Assembly (NCBI GenBank): GCA_025928645.1
Contig: JAICJD010000024.1
Coordinates: forward strand, 1 to 32,369
From: Gemmatimonadales bacterium
GTDB taxonomy: Bacteria > Gemmatimonadota > Gemmatimonadetes > Gemmatimonadales > GWC2-71-9
Direction: 5' to 3'
Length of the DNA: 32,369 nt
Both the position numbers and the translations under genes were made by a program. The notes beneath the pieces were generated by a model that was given only the letters and a program-made list of their open reading frames with translations, did not search any database and was not told the DNA's origin. This document shows positions 15,667 through 32,369 of this stretch, piece after piece. Each line of letters opens with the position of its first letter. Positions within the stretch are counted from its first letter, which is position 1.

Positions 15667-16589
15667 GCGCGGGGCGAGCCCTGCGGGCCGCCACCCTGAC
15701 GCTGGTGATGCTCGCGGGCGCCGGCGCGTGCGGCGGCACGCCCACGCGTGAGCGGACCGGCGACCAGGCCTACGCGGAGGGCCGCTATGCCGCCGCCCTC
15801 GGCGAGTACATGGCCGCCGCCAAGGTCCGGAGCACTGCCGGGCTGTGGGCCAAGATCGGGGCCTCCGCGCTCCACGCCGGCGAGCTGCGCCAGAGTCTCG
15901 AGGCGTACCTGCACCTGGTGGACGAGGACCCCGGCCGGCGCGCCGAGGCGGAGGAGGGCCTCGACGGGGTGGCCCGCGCCGCCGAGCGCCAGAGCAACGA
16001 GGACGTCCTGCAGGAGGTCGTGGCCAGCCTGCGTGCGGTCGCGCCCGAGCGCGTAACCGGCAGGTATGCGCTGGCGCTCGCACGGCAGCCTGACGCCGAC
16101 ACGGCCGACTTGGTCGCGCTCCTCCCCTCGGCGCTCGCGGCGGCGGGCGAGCCGGGGCAGGTGGACTCGCTCCTCACCCGCTACGGCCAGGTGCTCCAGG
16201 CGACCGCCGGGTGCGGACAGGCATTGCTCCAGTTTCGGGCCGTGCTCCGGCGCAGCCGGGACAGCAGCACGCGGGCCCCCGCGCGGCAGGGGGCCGCGGA
16301 CTGCGCCTTCACGCTGGGCCGGGCCGCCGATTCGGCCGGCCGCACGGAAGAAGCCGCGCTGTGGTACGCCGAGGCCGCGCGAGTGGACTCGACGACGTCT
16401 ACCGGCCGGGCAGCCTTGCTCCGATACGGCGCCGCGCGGCTCGCGCAGGGAGATACCCTGGCCGCGGCAATGGCGTTTCAGACGGTGTCGGCCGGTGGCG
16501 TCGCCGATTCGGCGGGGCGCGCGGCGGCCGAGCAGCTGACCACCCTCGGGACCCCGGCGCCGGACAGCGTCGTGAACCGTGAGCAATGA
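15663..16589 (+). CDS. Putative lipoprotein with TPR-like helical repeats
   Basis: The 308-residue product begins with a short Arg-containing, then hydrophobic segment ending in a possible lipid-attachment Cys23 (LAGAGAC; the -3 residue is Ala, so the lipobox is weak). The mature part is Ala-rich and helical with TPR-like units such as DQAYAEGRYAAALGEYMAAAK and AALLRYGAARLAQGDTLAAAM. The start was taken as GTG 15663, overlapping the previous stop by 4 nt; an upstream in-frame ATG at 15585 lies within the TPR gene and would put 26 residues before the signal. I do not recognise a named family. It sits just before bamD. Confidence 0.65.
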   Translation: MSAGRALRAATLTLVMLAGAGACGGTPTRERTGDQAYAEGRYAAALGEYMAAAKVRSTAGLWAKIGASALHAGELRQSLEAYLHLVDEDPGRRAEAEEGLDGVARAAERQSNEDVLQEVVASLRAVAPERVTGRYALALARQPDADTADLVALLPSALAAAGEPGQVDSLLTRYGQVLQATAGCGQALLQFRAVLRRSRDSSTRAPARQGAADCAFTLGRAADSAGRTEEAALWYAEAARVDSTTSTGRAALLRYGAARLAQGDTLAAAMAFQTVSAGGVADSAGRAAAEQLTTLGTPAPDSVVNREQ

Positions 16590-16599
16590 CGGGAGAGTG

Positions 16600-17382
16600 A
16601 TGCTTCGACGTCGTCTCTGGATGCTCCCGCTGGGCCTGGCCGCCTGTGGCGGGTCTACTCCGCAGCCCCGCGCCGCGCCCACTCCGGTGTCGAGCGTGGC
16701 GGAGACCGCCAGCCCCGAGGAGATCAACCGTCTCTGGGAGCAGGCGCGGAACGCGGTGCGTCACGGCAAGTGGCCGAATGTGGTCAAGTATCTCGATCGG
16801 GCGCTGCTCGAGTTCCCTCCCGGCGACTCGCGGGTGACGCAGGCGCACATGTGGGAAGGCGAGGCCCAGTTCGCGCTGGGGAGCAATCTCCAGGCGGCCC
16901 GCGAGTTCCGGAAGGCGTCCGACGACACGCCCAACGATCCGCTGGCGCCCGAGGCCCTGCTCAGGGTCGGCGACGTGTATGCCGACCTGTGGCGGCGTCC
17001 CGAGCTCGATCCGTCGTACGGCCAGACCGCGCTCGCCACCTACCAGGAGCTGCTCAACCGCTATCCGGGCACGAGCGCGGCCAAGCGGGCACAGCAGCGG
17101 ATCAACGATCTGCAGGAGCGCTTCGCCTACAAGGAGTACAAGGCGGCGCTCTTCTACATGCGCCTCAAGGCCTACGACTCGGCCATCCTGTACCTCAAGG
17201 ATCTGGTGGCGACGTATCCGCGCTCGTCCGTCGCGCCCGACGCGCTGCTGCACCTGGTTCAGGCCTACCGGACGTTGGGCTACAAGGAAGACGTGCAGGA
17301 GACCTGCGGGTACATCCGGCGGTTCCACTCGTCGACGCCCGGAGTCGGGAAGGCCTGCCCCGAGGGAGCCGAGCCATCGTGA
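16600..17382 (+). CDS. bamD: Outer membrane protein assembly factor BamD-like lipoprotein
   Basis: The 260-residue product has a lipoprotein signal (MLRRRLWMLPLGLAAC, Cys16) and TPR-type repeats of the YfiO/BamD kind. Examples are WPNVVKYLDRALLEFPPGD, AQFALGSNLQAAREFRKAS, TALATYQELLNRYPGTSAA and FYMRLKAYDSAILYLKDLV. BamD is the periplasmic lipoprotein partner of BamA in inserting beta-barrel proteins into the outer membrane, so this implies a diderm envelope. ATG 16600 with GGGAG upstream was chosen; GTG 16579, which overlaps the preceding gene, would only lengthen the signal by 7 residues. Family length is usually about 240-260. Confidence 0.82.
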   Translation: MLRRRLWMLPLGLAACGGSTPQPRAAPTPVSSVAETASPEEINRLWEQARNAVRHGKWPNVVKYLDRALLEFPPGDSRVTQAHMWEGEAQFALGSNLQAAREFRKASDDTPNDPLAPEALLRVGDVYADLWRRPELDPSYGQTALATYQELLNRYPGTSAAKRAQQRINDLQERFAYKEYKAALFYMRLKAYDSAILYLKDLVATYPRSSVAPDALLHLVQAYRTLGYKEDVQETCGYIRRFHSSTPGVGKACPEGAEPS

Positions 17383-17412
17383 GCGGCGGCGCGACGCCTC
17401 TGCCAGCCCCGT

Positions 17413-17512
17413 CTTCATCCCGAGCGCAGCGAGGGACCTTGCCCGCCCGCCCGGAACTCGGGCGGATCTCCGGGACGCCCGCACAAGGTCCCTCGCTGCG
17501 CTCGGGATGAAG
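17413..17512. repeat. Long palindromic intergenic repeat (REP-like), intact copy
   Basis: Perfect 29-bp inverted arms (17413-17441 and 17484-17512) begin CTTCATCCCGAGCGCAGCGA and end GGGACCTTG. They flank a 42-bp centre that can itself pair partly (CCCGCCCG with CGGGCGG). The unit fills most of the bamD-nadD gap. Partial copies of the same arm occur at 29675-29732 and 29985-30001, so it is a dispersed family. It has no coding capacity and would need an enzyme elsewhere to move. The right arm ends in the GAAG of GAAGGAG, which supplies part of the nadD ribosome-binding site. Confidence 0.92.
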
Positions 17513-17522
17513 GAGCGGGCGC

Positions 17523-18097
17523 ATGCCTTCGATCGGCCTGTTCGGCGGCTCGTTCGATCCCGTCCACCATGGCCATCTCATCGTTGCCCAGGTAGCCGCC
17601 GAGGCCCTGAAGCTGGACGAGCTTCGGTTCGTGCCGGCGCGGGAGCAGCCGTTCAAGCGCGGCCTGCACGGCGCGTCGCCGGCCGACCGCGCCGTGATGC
17701 TCGAGCTGGCCGTCGCCGGGAGCCCGGGCCTCTCGGTCGAGCGGATCGAGCTCGAGCGGCCCGGCCCCTCCTACACGGTCGATACCCTGGAATCGCTTCG
17801 GGAGCGGGAGCCCGGCGCGGCGTTCACGCTCCTGCTCGGGGCTGACGCCGCGGCCGAGCTCGAGGCCTGGCACCGCGCCCGCGACGTGCCGGGACTGGCC
17901 CGGATCGTGGTGTTCGGCCGGCCGGGCACGCCGCTCCCCGCCTCCGCCCTCATCTCCGGCGCCATCGAGGTGCCGGCCATCGACATCTCCGCCACCGAGA
18001 TCCGTCGCCGCGCCCGGGCGGGGGCGCCGGTCCGCTACTGGGTGCCCGATGCGGTCGCCGAGTATATGGCCCGGCACCGCTTATATTTGGACCCAGA

Positions 18098-18101
<4 letters not shown>
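17523..18101 (+). CDS. nadD: Nicotinate-nucleotide adenylyltransferase
   Basis: The 192-residue cytoplasmic enzyme joins nicotinate mononucleotide and ATP to make deamido-NAD. It has the nucleotidyltransferase signature [15 protein letters not shown] (residues 5-19), [10 protein letters not shown] with the conserved Pro, and the C-terminal [13 protein letters not shown], equivalent to the ISSTxIR motif. The ATG at 17523 is preceded by AAGGAG at 17510-17515, whose first bases belong to the palindromic repeat. The stop overlaps the secA start in ATGA. Separation from bamD by the repeat hairpin could weaken transcription from the upstream run. Confidence 0.94.
18082..18089 (+). promoter_or_regulatory. 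Candidate TAnnTTTG promoter element upstream of secA
   Basis: TATATTTG within the end of nadD exactly matches the Bacteroidota-type -7 element and equals the box at 39-46. It ends 8 nt before the secA ATG, so a transcript from it would have a leader of only about 5-6 nt. No clear TTTG was found 19-21 nt upstream, so it may be chance. Confidence 0.35.
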
Positions 18102-21280
<3,179 letters not shown>

Positions 21281-28312: not shown

Positions 28313-29674
28313 GTGGCCCTGAGCGCGCCTCCCCGGCCGGCGATGCCGGCCACGTCGCACACGCCGCGGCCCTACACGGGGCCATCGAAGGCGGAGGTGC
28401 TCGCGATGCGCCGGCAGTACGGCCATCCGAGCACCTTTCTGTACTACCGCGAGCCCCTCATGCCGGTCGAGGGGTTCATGCAGTATCTGTGGGACGAAAC
28501 CGGGCGCCGCTATCTCGACATGTTCGCGGGCATCGTCACGGTCTCCTGCGGACACTCACACCCGAAATTCGTCGAGCGGGTCACGGCGCAGATCGACCTG
28601 CTGCAGCACACCACCACGATCTACCTGCACCCCAACTTCCCGCTCCTGGCCAAGCGGCTGGCGGAGAAGCTGCCTCCGGGGCTCGACGTCACCTACTTCG
28701 TGAACAGCGGGAGCGAAGCGAACGACCTCGCGCTGCTGATGGCGCGGGCGTACACCGGCGCGAACGACGTCATCGCGGTGCGGAACGGGTATCATGGGGG
28801 CTCGCCGTCGACCATGGCGGCCACGTCGCTCCACACCTGGAAATTTCCTCAGCAGCTCAGCTCCGGCGTCCACCACGCGATCAACCCCGACCCGTACCGA
28901 AGCCCCTTCGAGGGCACGCCGGAGGAGATCGCGCGGAAGAGCGCGGCGGACATCCGGGACCTGGTGCGTTTCTCCACCCCGGGGCGCGTCGCGGCCTTCA
29001 TCGCCGAGCCGATTCAGGGCGTCGGCGGCGCCACGCACGGCGCGCCCAACTACCTGGCCGAGGCATACGCGATCACGCGGGAGTACGGCGGCCTCTGCAT
29101 CGCCGACGAGGTGCAGACCGGGTTCGGCCGGACCGGGCGCCACTACTGGGGCTTCGAGAATTTCGGGGTCGTGCCCGACATCGTCACGATGGCCAAGGGC
29201 ATCGGGAACGGGTGGCCGCTGGCCGCGGTCACCACGCGGCGCGAGATCGCGGAGGCGCTGACGCAGCGCATCCACTTCAACACCTTCGGCGGCAACCCGG
29301 TGGCCATGGCGGCGGGTCTCGCGGTGCTCGACATCATCGAGGAGGACGGTCTGCAGGAGAACGCGCGCGGCGTCGGCGCACGGCTCAAGGGCGGGCTCGA
29401 GGAACTGCAGCATCGCCACCGTCTTATCGGCGACGTCCGGGGCATGGGCCTCCTGCTCGGCTGCGAGCTGGTCCGGGACCGGGGGACGAAGGAACCCGCG
29501 ATCGAGGAGACCGTCGCCGTGTGGGAGGCCATGCGCGAGATGGGCGTGCTGGTAGGGAAGGGTGGACTCTTCGGGAACACGCTCCGCATCAAGCCGCCGC
29601 TGTGCATCACCGCCCAGGACGTGGACTTCGCGCTCGAGGTGCTGGACGCGGCGCTCGGGAGGGCCGGTCGGTAG
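28313..29674 (+). CDS. Class III PLP aminotransferase (AGXT2-like)
   Basis: The 453-residue enzyme has class III features: YLDMFAGIVTVSCGHSHP, VNSGSEANDLALLMARAYTG, RNGYHGGS, AEPIQGVGG, IADEVQTGFGRTG and the PLP-binding MAKGIGNGWP with Lys295. The closest recognisable type is alanine-glyoxylate aminotransferase 2, but the class includes omega-amino-acid and putrescine aminotransferases. The adjacent polyamine-type transporter and oxidase remnant make an amine substrate plausible; that is inference. The start is taken as GTG 28313; ATG 28343 is an alternative, and neither has a strong ribosome-binding site. The TAG stop directly abuts a repeat, and the extended potC frame on the other strand overlaps its last 68 nt. 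Confidence 0.85.
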   Translation: MALSAPPRPAMPATSHTPRPYTGPSKAEVLAMRRQYGHPSTFLYYREPLMPVEGFMQYLWDETGRRYLDMFAGIVTVSCGHSHPKFVERVTAQIDLLQHTTTIYLHPNFPLLAKRLAEKLPPGLDVTYFVNSGSEANDLALLMARAYTGANDVIAVRNGYHGGSPSTMAATSLHTWKFPQQLSSGVHHAINPDPYRSPFEGTPEEIARKSAADIRDLVRFSTPGRVAAFIAEPIQGVGGATHGAPNYLAEAYAITREYGGLCIADEVQTGFGRTGRHYWGFENFGVVPDIVTMAKGIGNGWPLAAVTTRREIAEALTQRIHFNTFGGNPVAMAAGLAVLDIIEEDGLQENARGVGARLKGGLEELQHRHRLIGDVRGMGLLLGCELVRDRGTKEPAIEETVAVWEAMREMGVLVGKGGLFGNTLRIKPPLCITAQDVDFALEVLDAALGRAGR

Positions 29675-30794
29675 CTTCATCCCCGACCCCGAGCGAAGCG
29701 AGGGAGAGGGACCTTGCCCGCCGTGCCGGAACCCGCCGCGCGTCCTCCAGCTGCCCGAGGGTGAGCGCGACCATCAGGCGGCCGGTCGGCTCGTAGTCGC
29801 ACCGGATGCCGCGTTGGCGGAGGAAGGCGGTCATCTCCGCGACGTTCGCCCTCCCGAGCGCCGCAAGCCGGCGCGCCTCGGCCGTACCGAGTGCGGATCG
29901 CGAGATCGTGGCCGTGGTCCACCGATTCGGACAGCATCCCTGCGTTGCGTCCGCGGGCGCCGTGGGCCGCCCGCGTGAGGCGATCTTCATCCCGAGCGCA
30001 GGGCCGCGTTGGCGAAGCGTGCGCTGCTGCCAGAGCACGGTCGCGGCCAGCACGATCAAGCTCAGGAACAGGATGGCGGTCGCCAGCACGTTGATCTGCG
30101 GGGGGAACGCGGCGCGACGCGCGCCGTAGACGTAGAGCGGGTAGGTGACGCGGCTGCCCGCGTTGAACAGCGTGATGATGAAATCGTCCATCGAGAGGGC
30201 GAACGCGAGCATCGCGGCCGCCGCGATGCCCGGCGCGATGAGCGGCAGCGTGATCCTGGTGAAGACACGCGCCGGCGTGGCGCCGAGGTCCATCGCCGCC
30301 TCCTCGAGCGTCCAGTCGAAGCCGCGCAGCCTGGCCCGAACCGTGAGCGCGACGTAGCTCACCGAGAACATGATGTGGGCGATGACGATGGTCGTGAAGC
30401 CGGTCGGCGCGTCGAGGTCCAGGAACAGGCTCAGGAGCGACGACCCGAGCACGACCTCGGGCGTCGTGAGCGGCAGCACCAGCAGCAGGGCGACCGCCCC
30501 CCGGCCGCGGAAGCGGTAGCGGGTGAGCGCCAGCGCGACGAGCGTGCCGAGCACGGTGGCCACGGCCGTGGACACCGCGGCCACCCGGAGGCTCAGCAGC
30601 ATGGACTCCGTGAGGGCCTCGTAGGCGAAGGGGTGGCGCCAGGCGTCGAGCGAGAACGCCTTCCATACGAAGTTGAACCGCCCGGCCGGCCGGTTGAAAC
30701 TGTAGAGCACGATCACCGCGATGGGCAGGAACAGGTACAGCAGGACCAGAGCCGCCGCGCCGTCGAGCAGCCATCCCCCGAGGCGCCGGATCAC
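29607..30794 (-). CDS. potC: Spermidine/putrescine ABC transporter permease PotC, with run-on C-terminal tail
   Basis: The 395-residue reading frame is about 130 residues longer than usual PotC. Residues 1-264 are a normal inner-membrane permease with six hydrophobic segments and the ATPase-contact loop EEAAMDLGATPARVFTRITLPLIAPG (about 164-189). After LRQRG at 260-264 the frame enters the palindromic repeat (30001-29985), then the oxidase remnant, then antisense to the aminotransferase 3' end, with no stop until 29607. The tail is therefore accidental coding, and the normal stop appears to have been lost. The start is GTG (complement of 30792-30794) in a 4-nt overlap with potB. It would pair with PotB to import polyamines; whether the tail is tolerated is unknown. 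Confidence 0.85.
   Translation of the reverse strand: MIRRLGGWLLDGAAALVLLYLFLPIAVIVLYSFNRPAGRFNFVWKAFSLDAWRHPFAYEALTESMLLSLRVAAVSTAVATVLGTLVALALTRYRFRGRGAVALLLVLPLTTPEVVLGSSLLSLFLDLDAPTGFTTIVIAHIMFSVSYVALTVRARLRGFDWTLEEAAMDLGATPARVFTRITLPLIAPGIAAAAMLAFALSMDDFIITLFNAGSRVTYPLYVYGARRAAFPPQINVLATAILFLSLIVLAATVLWQQRTLRQRGPALGMKIASRGRPTAPADATQGCCPNRWTTATISRSALGTAEARRLAALGRANVAEMTAFLRQRGIRCDYEPTGRLMVALTLGQLEDARRVPARRARSLSLASLGVGDEATDRPSRAPRPAPRARSPRPGR
29675..29732. repeat. Degenerate left half of the palindromic repeat
   Basis: It starts CTTCATCCCC directly after the aminotransferase stop. It follows the intact copy at 17413 through GAGCGAAGCGAGGGA and GGGACCTTGCCCGCC to GCCGGAAC, with two short insertions (about 5 and 6 nt). 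The matching right arm is absent. It ends exactly where the oxidase similarity begins. Confidence 0.8.
29733..29979 (-). pseudogene. Remnant of a FAD-dependent amine/D-amino-acid oxidase (DAO family)
   Basis: Read on the minus strand, one frame gives AAHGARGRNAGMLSESVDHG and then HDLAIRTRYG (about 29970-29881), matching the GASGRNAG region of DAO-type flavoenzymes. After a frame change near 29880 the next frame gives EARRLAALGRANVAEMTAFL and then IRCDYEPTGRLMVALTLGQL, ending at 29733. Together these correspond roughly to residues 40-125 of a typical ~400-residue oxidase. The N-terminal FAD dinucleotide motif and the whole C-terminal half are missing, and GASGRN has become GARGRN. It is flanked by repeat copies on both sides. 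Such oxidases often accompany polyamine transporters and aminotransferases, so it was probably part of that pathway. Confidence 0.72.
29985..30001. repeat. 17-bp partial copy of the palindromic repeat arm
   Basis: CTTCATCCCGAGCGCAG is identical to the first 17 bases of the arm at 17413, in the same orientation. It lies at the point where the potC product departs from the PotC family and just outside the oxidase remnant. A 17-bp exact match to a repeat found elsewhere in the window is unlikely by chance. Confidence 0.75.
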
Positions 30795-31636
30795 GCCAGG
30801 TCCTCGGTGCCGAGCACGCGGGCGTAGATCGTCACGCCGATGGTGATCGCTGCCATCAGCACGAACGAGAGGGACGCGGCCAGCGGATAGTCGCGCACCT
30901 CGAGGAACTGGTTCTGGATCACCGTTCCGATCATCTGCTGGTTGGGGCTTCCCAGCAGCTGCGCGTTGATGAAGTCGCCGGCCGCCGGAATGAAGGTGAG
31001 CAGGCTGCCCGCGAACACGCCCGGGAGAGAGAGCGGGAGCACCACCTTCCGGAATGCCGCCACCGGCGTGGCGTAGAGATCCTGCGCCGCCTCGACCAGG
31101 CGGAGATCGATCTTCTCGAGGCTGACGTAGATCGGCAGGATCATGAACGGGAGGAAGTTGTACGTGAGGCCGCCGACGACGGCCGCGGCCGTGTCGAGCA
31201 GCCGTCCCGCGCCCCCCAACAGATGGAGCTGCCGAAACAGCCAGACGGCGGGACCGTCGTCGGCCAGGATGGTCTTCCAGGCGAAGGTACGCACCAGGAA
31301 GCTGGTGAAGAACGGCAGCATGACGAGGCCGAGCAGCAGATTCCTGAGCCGGCCGGCGCGAAAAGCGATGCAGTACGCGAGCGGATAGCCGGCCGCGAGG
31401 GCCAGCAGCGTCGCTGCGAGCCCATAGCGCAGCGATCGGAGGAAGTGCGTGCCATAGTCGGCGAGCGCGCGAGCATAGGTCGCGTACCAGGCACCGCCTG
31501 TGTCGGTCACCGAGGTCTGGGCGAGCGTGACGATGGGCACGACGAAGAACGCGAGGAGCCAGACGACCCCGGGCGCCACCAGCAGATACGGGGCGAGACG
31601 GTGTCGCCTCGCTTCGCCGATCCCCGTGCGGGACAT
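30791..31636 (-). CDS. potB: Spermidine/putrescine ABC transporter permease PotB
   Basis: The 281-residue inner-membrane permease has a first hydrophobic segment near residues 16-40 (YLLVAPGVVWLLAFFVVPIV), further segments, and LPFFTSFLVRTFAWKTIL, a PotB-type motif. The cytoplasmic loop that docks on the ATPase reads VEAAQDLYATPVAAFRKVV, with Tyr where the EAA loop normally has Gly. The ATG (complement of 31634-31636) is 6 nt after the potD stop, and the TGA overlaps the potC GTG. The gene order potD-potB-potC lacks potA, which may lie beyond the window edge. Confidence 0.92.
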   Translation of the reverse strand: MSRTGIGEARRHRLAPYLLVAPGVVWLLAFFVVPIVTLAQTSVTDTGGAWYATYARALADYGTHFLRSLRYGLAATLLALAAGYPLAYCIAFRAGRLRNLLLGLVMLPFFTSFLVRTFAWKTILADDGPAVWLFRQLHLLGGAGRLLDTAAAVVGGLTYNFLPFMILPIYVSLEKIDLRLVEAAQDLYATPVAAFRKVVLPLSLPGVFAGSLLTFIPAAGDFINAQLLGSPNQQMIGTVIQNQFLEVRDYPLAASLSFVLMAAITIGVTIYARVLGTEDLA

Positions 31637-31642
31637 GGGCCG

Positions 31643-32369
31643 CTACGCCCCGATCGCGTCCTGGAAGATCTGGTTGAAGTCGCGATCCTCGGCGTCGGAC
31701 AGCGACCGGAAGACGTGGAGGCGCGCGCGCAACGCATCCGGCGGGTTGACCAGGGGGCTGGCCGCGAGCGCGGCCGCGATCTTGCGCAGCTCCTCGCCCG
31801 CCCCTTTGACAGGGGACACGTACGGAGCCGCGGCGACGATCTGCGCGGAGTGCCGCGGGTCGTACACGTAGTTGATCCAGGCCATGGCCAGGTCTTCCCG
31901 GTCCGAGGTCTTCGGGATCATCATGTTGTCGGAGTAGAGCATCGCTCCTTCTCTGGGCGCGATCCAGCGCAGGTCCGGATTGTCGGCCGCCAGGCCCTGG
32001 ATGTCTCCCGACCACGCGATCGCTGCCGCGATGTTCCCGGCGGCGAGATCCTCAGCGTAGTCGTTCCCGGTGAATTTCCGGATCTGCCCGCTCTGGCGCC
32101 CCTGCTTGATCCTCGCGGCCGCCGCCAGCACGTCGGCGCGGGTGGCCCGGCCCGGGTCATTCCCCATCCCCAGCATCACGAGCCCGATCGTATCCCGCAT
32201 TTCCGTCAGCATGGTCACCCGGCCCTCGAGCGCCGGATCGAACAGGTCGTTGATGCTGGTGAGCTCGCGGCCGGTCTTCGCCGGATTGTAGCCCACGCCG
32301 GTCATGCCCGAGAGCCAGGGTACGCTGTATCTCCGCCCCGGATCGAAGCTCACGTCCTTCACGCCGTCC
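31643..32369 (-). CDS. potD: Spermidine/putrescine ABC transporter substrate-binding protein PotD, 5' end cut by the window
   Basis: About 242 C-terminal residues are visible; the N terminus, including any signal peptide, lies past position 32369. Family features are YSVPWLSGMTGVGYNPAK, INDLFDPALEGRVTMLTEMRD, GNIAAAIAWSGDIQGL, the segment with REGAMLYSDNMMIPKTSDRE, MAWINYVYDP and AAAPYVSPV. PotD binds polyamines in the periplasm and delivers them to PotB-PotC; AWSGD and the SDNMMIP Asp are in the region that holds the ligand in relatives. Full-length members are about 350 residues. The in-frame GTG at 32362 is internal, not the start, because coding pattern continues upstream of it. Confidence 0.92.
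   Translation of the reverse strand, partial: DGVKDVSFDPGRRYSVPWLSGMTGVGYNPAKTGRELTSINDLFDPALEGRVTMLTEMRDTIGLVMLGMGNDPGRATRADVLAAAARIKQGRQSGQIRKFTGNDYAEDLAAGNIAAAIAWSGDIQGLAADNPDLRWIAPREGAMLYSDNMMIPKTSDREDLAMAWINYVYDPRHSAQIVAAAPYVSPVKGAGEELRKIAAALAASPLVNPPDALRARLHVFRSLSDAEDRDFNQIFQDAIGA

Follow-up and report, generated by a model that had tools for sequence, protein, structure and literature searches.

What is the long palindrome that lies between bamD and nadD in a Gemmatimonadales bacterium, and what could have carried it there? Within the window, by which we mean the whole 32,369-nucleotide stretch of contig JAICJD010000024.1 (assembly GCA_025928645.1) that was analysed, the original prediction had singled out two perfectly complementary 29-bp arms around a 42-nt centre, had noted two further partial copies, and had proposed an abundant, REP-like, non-autonomous family whose copies sit at gene ends. 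These structural claims hold (Table 1): the arms match without exception, the copy at 29675 aligns, apart from two insertions, with an arm and the beginning of the centre, the copy at 29985 is an exact 17-nt match, and all three lie at or near gene ends. Two hairpin units in inverted orientation make up the element, a REPIN-like piece of non-autonomous mobile DNA whose mobiliser, we infer, is probably a small single-domain GIY-YIG nuclease supplied by rarer full cassettes.

Table 1. Features of the palindromic element, its partial copies and its neighbours (positions in the window)
Feature	Position	Strand	Remarks
Complete long-form element, head-to-head pair of two REP-like hairpin units	17413..17512	.	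between bamD and nadD
Left arm	17413..17441	+	CTTC tag 17413-17416, hairpin ATCCC-GA-GC-GCA-GC-GA-GGGAC, tail CT, then TG; predicted hairpin, outer-stem covariation across phyla
Centre of the long form (42 nt)	17442..17483	.	partly self-pairing
Right arm	17484..17512	-	perfect reverse complement of the left arm
Partial copy	29675..29732	+	left arm and start of the long-form centre, without the right arm
Truncated arm	29985..30001	+	17 nt, identical to the arm; a permease-like ORF on the minus strand reads through it in frame
bamD (YfiO, PF13525)	16579..17382	+	left neighbour
nadD (CTP_transf_like, PF01467)	17523..18101	+	right neighbour

The main copy is tightly fitted between its neighbours, with 30 bases separating it from the bamD stop (17382) and 10 from the nadD ATG (17523), and the copy at 29675 begins directly after the stop of an aminotransferase gene (29674). 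In this latter copy, read by eye, matched insertions (CGACCC and GGGAGA) occur on both arms of the hairpin in such a way that the stem stays paired; they repeat the GA/GA motif, as if the hairpins can grow symmetrically. A permease-like ORF, also recognised by eye on the minus strand (29607-32015), runs in frame through the truncated arm, then through an apparent gene fragment with an FAD-oxidoreductase-like look, and on into the second partial copy. As this one frame traverses both partial copies, the repeats seem to have altered the 3' end of the permease-like ORF.

Folded as single-stranded DNA, the 100-mer has a predicted energy of -52 kcal/mol (z -11.1 against 200 shuffles). A single 29-nt arm, on the other hand, is no more stable than its shuffles (z -0.11), which leaves covariation, not energy, as the argument that each arm forms a hairpin of its own. 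Each unit follows a common plan. An outer tag, which is CTTC in the window's family and TGTC or CGTC in most of the other genomes examined, is followed by an outer stem of ~5 bp, by GA/GA mismatches that face each other, by an inner stem with its GNA triloop, and by a CT tail. In a set of 105 units (54 loci) that share the core GAGCGNAGCGA, the five positions flanking the core pair at frequencies of 0.76, 0.74, 0.69, 0.74 and 0.60, as against 0.39, 0.56, 0.35, 0.43 and 0.37 upon shuffling, counts that, given the kinship among the units, are not independent. Where the tag and tail begin, at positions six and seven, pairing falls to 0.22 and 0.24 (shuffles 0.16 and 0.15). The outer stems thus covary across phyla.

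In other families the GA/GA mismatch pair is kept while the inner stem varies in length, as in GGCGC-GAA-GCGCC (locus L089) and GCC-GCA-GGC (L139), and long perfect stems are seen at L103 and several plasmid loci. A CCA tail is present at L103, L202, L206, L207, L212 and L214, in place of the CT of the window's arm. The arm core GCGNAGC is the same motif as the mini-hairpin d(GCGAAGC) and related GNA-loop hairpins, of which GCGAAGC is described as extraordinarily stable, with a Tm of 78 C (PMC4686876); that work, in the part consulted here, concerns synthetic DNA and draws no tie to genomic repeats.

The window's genome (G000; 3.89 Mb in 294 contigs, completeness 97%) contains 81 forward and 80 reverse matches to the 25-mer arm core at up to 3 mismatches, and a reversed-pattern control gives none on either strand. 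Copies therefore occur throughout the genome, well beyond those in the window. Seventy fetched loci or stretches, together with the window, yielded 117 distinct arms (up to 5 mismatches); 50 of the 51 adjacent pairs closer than 400 bp are head-to-head and one is tandem. Measured between the TCAT ends, the 49 elements with full flanks fall into two main size forms, 27 of 79–82 bp and 20 of 94–99 bp, the remaining two being of 108 bp and of 368 bp, the latter a copy that holds a GIY-YIG gene. The copy between bamD and nadD belongs to the long form. Immediately before TCAT, C at position -2 and T at position -1 are each found in 37 of the 49, giving the tag CTTC; seven left ends read GTC, and relatives in other phyla often carry TGTC or CGTC. 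An inverted repeat at the end of a contig (L001/L002, first 135 bases of G000:C13) extends perfectly into its flanks and is probably an assembly artefact.

That the family is mobile, as had been proposed, is borne out by these 161 arm matches together with empty orthologous sites. Ten genomes of the genus were compared at the bamD-nadD gap. Seven of the nine congeners have next to none (-2 to +1 bp); G227 has 59 bp and no element, G206 has 153 bp that include a TGTC-tagged element, and the window's genome has 140 bp. The position is thus not fixed, the repeat filling the gap in only two of the ten, and since the gap is nearly nil in seven congeners, the element is an insertion in this lineage and not a fixed terminator. 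A classical MITE of a DDE transposon, with target duplication, was considered and rejected, direct repeats of at least 6 bp flanking 5 of 49 elements versus 5% of mismatched pairs, and those of at least 8 bp flanking 1 of 49 versus 0.2%. One locus (L065) has a 9-bp direct repeat that may be due to chance.

The 368-bp element, on contig C68 (L053/L072), points to a candidate mobiliser. Its arms stand 343 bp apart, and between these two halves of one repeat pair lies a 111-aa ORF whose stop codon falls inside the right arm and whose product is a stand-alone GIY-YIG domain protein (PF01541, E 9.7e-13). Another stand-alone GIY-YIG gene of this genome (C250, L073) is bordered left and right by arm-like core hairpins, which share one orientation, and fails a looser hairpin test on both sides. 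The other three PF01541 matches in the genome comprise one within a 325-aa ORF, one read as UvrC and one that is weak. Alignment of 21 such proteins (set A2; a further set, A3, has 8), picked for conservation and partly from hairpin-bearing loci, gives 11 invariant columns, with E68 conserved in at least 90%. Only two solved structures match the GIY-YIG profile below an E-value of 0.01, 1zg2 (E 2.4e-10) and 1ywl (E 1.2e-6); these UPF0213-type stand-alone proteins share the GIY-YIG domain, yet are named hypothetical proteins, with no tie to repeats in their entries. To our knowledge, no activity is known for this single-domain nuclease.

Tagged hairpins flank such genes well beyond this genome. 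Of the 249 genomes in the phylum that were searched for GIY-YIG proteins, 40 have matches at E <= 1e-10; 30 loci (L076-L105; not one per match) were taken from these, and a scan of GTDB contigs contributed the best 80 of at least 574 confirmed loci from many phyla. Inverted repeats across the gene score 18 or more at 30 of 79 loci, and in none of 371 windows displaced inside those loci; a cross-locus null was set aside, the repeat being common to unrelated loci, and shifted windows took its place. Under strict rules (a GTC tag, a 5-bp stem, inner GA/GA or a long stem, and a C tail), which replaced looser ones (two-sided 51 of 124, control 18 of 513), 43 of the 107 loci out of 124 that have full 260-bp flanks bear hairpins on both sides of the gene, compared with 2 of 513 shifted windows (p 3e-34) and 1 of 250 neighbouring ORFs. 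On one or both sides the figures are 64 of 107, 17 of 513 and 35 of 250, respectively. The 43 loci with no strict hairpin on either side include some with other or degenerate hairpins and others with nothing recognisable. A physical association of the hairpins with GIY-YIG genes is, on this evidence, very likely.

Among the 67 scan loci with full flanks, two-sided cases occur under 14 of 22 phylum labels, of which Patescibacteria and Parcubacteria may be one phylum. The four Pseudomonadota scan loci with full flanks have no strict hairpins; inverted repeats scoring 20 to 41 are found at the scan loci of Lysobacter, Caulobacter, Hyphomicrobiales and one alphaproteobacterium. The simple hairpin class is present, at the locus or elsewhere, in 26 of the 30 genomes behind selected scan loci (30 of the 80, many picked for a core in the flank), with none in the reversed control. 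No strict hairpins lie within 600 bp of the other GIY-YIG genes examined (L071, L074, which is read as UvrC, L075, L224 and L225). At L090 (G195) the gene is flanked by inverted repeats of ~130 bp that hold a differently stemmed hairpin around a GAGCGCAGCGA core, and at L092 (G044) units of GTCGCCCTGAGCG type recur several times to either side of the GIY-YIG gene.

The same arrangement is met with classical CGTC REPs. A tblastn search of plasmids with the proteobacterial type of GIY-YIG protein matched 32 records, of which 13 were read. In eight of these, namely Azospirillum lipoferum, Novosphingobium aromaticivorans, Sphingobium, Shinella, Rhizobium CIAT894, Neorhizobium, Neisseria gonorrhoeae and an Aeromonas-labelled record, inverted REPs of CGTC type flank the gene. 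The Spirosoma and Planktothrix loci have GA-type hairpins, that of S. meliloti has an inverted repeat rejected by the hairpin rules, and those of R. tumorigenes and Photobacterium have no flanking hairpins. Strict two-sided hairpins are found in 8 of the 13 records versus 2 of 78 shifted windows; three of the 78 score 26.5–29 as plain inverted repeats, because these records are rich in REPs. The A. lipoferum REP has 10 copies in its own record and 29, with a variant stem, in that of N. gonorrhoeae, and is absent from five others searched; the Shinella REP has 12 copies in Shinella and 3 in Neorhizobium, and is absent from nine others. The arms thus occur in those records whose GIY-YIG gene bears them and not in the others searched. 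Both A. lipoferum and S. meliloti figure among the species of a survey of CGTC REPs, which treats Neisseria CGTC-1 as identical to dRS3 and, in the portion consulted, describes such repeats, including dRS3 and Rickettsia RPE-4/RPE-6, as apparently lacking a dedicated transposase (Di Nocera 2013, PMC3733652).

Gene and repeat also go together across genomes. Over the 249 genomes of the phylum, with kinship handled to genus level only, GIY-YIG gene and repeat pattern divide as 24 with both, 16 with the gene alone, 16 with the pattern alone and 193 with neither (p 7e-13); 9 of the 11 repeat-rich genera (at least 10 copies) have the gene (p 1.5e-5), as do 12 of the 14 genomes with at least 20 copies. 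The pattern, which covers one hairpin class only, is missing from 16 of the 40 gene-positive genomes. Three genomes with many copies, G122 (75), G241 (33) and G118 (11), have no GIY-YIG match even at E 1e-5, and G090 (13) and G008 (9) have only weak matches inside frames of ~330 aa.

The nuclease clade, moreover, follows the hairpin type. In a tree of 119 of the 124 proteins over 91 columns, 70 of them labelled by hairpin (62 of type A, 8 of type B, with L203 labelled by hand), the types require a single change, against 7.7 in shuffles and with none of 500 as low; the SH-aLRT value for the A/B split is a moderate 87, and two extreme branches, L078 and L080, perhaps wrong frames, were kept. All type B rows come from proteobacterial plasmid records, and the unlabelled L099-L101, of the window's own phylum, fall in the same clade.

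Finally, the REP-GIY-YIG-REP cassette is itself a presence/absence insertion. In A. lipoferum, the gene with a REP pair on each side fills a 617-bp gap between sufB and sufC; in A. oryzae and A. ramasamyi, 95–96% identical to A. lipoferum there, the gap is of 87 and 91 bp, and these two together with A. thermophilum (55 bp), A. argentinense and A. brasilense have neither gene nor tagged REP. In Azospirillum B510 (L217) the gap is of 129 bp, without the gene, and is filled by a long untagged palindrome (read by eye). The corresponding gap of Shinella PSBB067 is occupied by a further cassette whose REP differs, and the site, with these two different cassettes (L202 and L221), is a possible hot spot. 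At the C68 site, five of seven judged congeners (G206, G227, G250, G251 and G065) lack both the gene and the core hairpin; of the other two, G249 carries a GIY-YIG cassette of another kind and G008 shows a decayed repeat. G090, at a contig end, was not judged, and G231 gave no match.

The linkage of hairpins and GIY-YIG genes is therefore tight, repeated, type-matched and mobile. As for how the nuclease might act, the nearest model is the RAYT system of REPs and REPINs (the REPtron), which likewise features short tagged hairpins, head-to-head pairs, high copy number and a hairpin-flanked nuclease gene. E. coli REPs need a mismatch in the stem, and TnpA_REP, in the part of that work consulted, is described as cutting single-stranded REPs at CT beside the hairpin, making use of the tag and bulge (PMC8266576). 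The systems differ in their tags (CTTC/TGTC/CGTC here, GTAG there) and in their enzymes, a GIY-YIG protein here as opposed to an HUH tyrosine transposase, Y1_Tnp being absent from the window's genome. By analogy with TnpA_REP, we suppose that full hairpin-gene-hairpin cassettes would supply the nuclease, the C68 cassette being one that carries the window's repeat in the same genome; that units would extrude as hairpins when single-stranded, in replication or as a cruciform; that the nuclease would recognise the tag, mismatch and loop and cut at the ends of the unit; and that a released or templated copy would be joined at a new site without target duplication. The cleavage, where it falls and the nuclease's role in driving the spread are all inferred. 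The same nuclease family accompanies classical CGTC REPs in Proteobacteria, and whether it is the dedicated mobiliser of TGTC/CGTC-tagged REP hairpins across bacteria at large we regard as an even call.

GIY-YIG nucleases are classical homing enzymes, and the main rival to this reading is that the gene homes: its product would cut REP pairs and the gene would be copied in by repair, the REPs themselves spreading by another route. A REP-flanked nuclease gene would arise in this way too, the C68 gene does sit between the halves of one pair, and the gene-less B510 allele has an untagged palindrome. The alleles that homing would require, with the REP in place and the gene missing, are nonetheless not what is mostly seen: the empty sufB-sufC alleles of five Azospirillum species and those of five of the seven congeners at the C68 site argue against homing because the tagged REP is missing as well, with B510 and G008, one at each of these two sites, not clean. 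A. lipoferum, furthermore, has a whole REP pair on each side of the gene, and the gene is carried by most repeat-rich genomes, so that we consider homing unlikely.

We think it more improbable still that an unrelated factor, such as a lost or distant tyrosine transposase, IS machinery or replication slippage, moves REPs and gene alike, leaving the nuclease a passenger or a REP-processing host enzyme. Two genomes with more than 20 copies (G122 and G241) do lack the gene, and Y1_Tnp is present in 63 of the 249 relatives. The REP-associated tyrosine transposase that the original prediction had put forward as a possible mobiliser was, however, rejected for this genome, with no PF01797 match in it and no association with repeat number (3 of 14 repeat-rich genomes; odds ratio 0.80, p = 1). 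No strict tagged hairpins lie within 600 bp of the six Y1_Tnp loci examined, and it is the nuclease clade that tracks hairpin type. Least probable are non-mobile transcription terminators or mRNA stabilisers, which the gene-end positions of the three window copies would suit, and which the presence/absence data and the sheer number of arm matches mostly refute; nor does 16500-18200 give any Rfam match at gathering score (the sole candidate, MIR918, at 38.5 bits versus 268, was judged a hairpin artefact), and the sequence read around the palindrome has no adjoining T-run on either strand.

The CGTC superfamily is among the known systems closest to the window's repeat, as far as the consulted part of its description goes (Di Nocera 2013). 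The two share AT at the stem base and head-to-head pairing. For the tag the picture is mixed: the superfamily has CGTC, with variants TGTC and CCTC, and the window copy has CTTC, with GTC at 7 of 49 left ends in its genome and often TGTC or CGTC in relatives from other phyla. The superfamily's stem of 8–9 bp, loop of 4–5 nt and CCA tail differ from the 4–5-bp outer stem, GA/GA, 2 bp, 3-nt GNA loop and CT tail of the window's family. Our literature searches, thin on subscription journals and preprints, found no link between GIY-YIG proteins and REPs, nor is there one in the portions consulted of PMC3733652, PMC6006769, PMC12306157 and PMC5082802.

If the proposal is correct, RAYT would not be the only REP-nuclease system: a second would have evolved independently, its hydrolytic enzyme picking out hairpin DNA by the tag, the tandem GA mismatch and the GNA loop and moving it, with nuclease and hairpin type diversifying together. 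Such a system would explain dRS3, RPE and the GAGCGAAGCGA-type repeats found in many phyla, and genes at present annotated no further than “GIY-YIG nuclease family protein” would acquire a function. A candidate mobiliser can now be named for CGTC REPs, found in many phyla beside both these classical repeats and the GAGCGNAGCGA class. It can be put to the test directly at the bench, by combining a small purified protein with an oligonucleotide, and it offers a new enzyme class in which to study the mobility of hairpin DNA.
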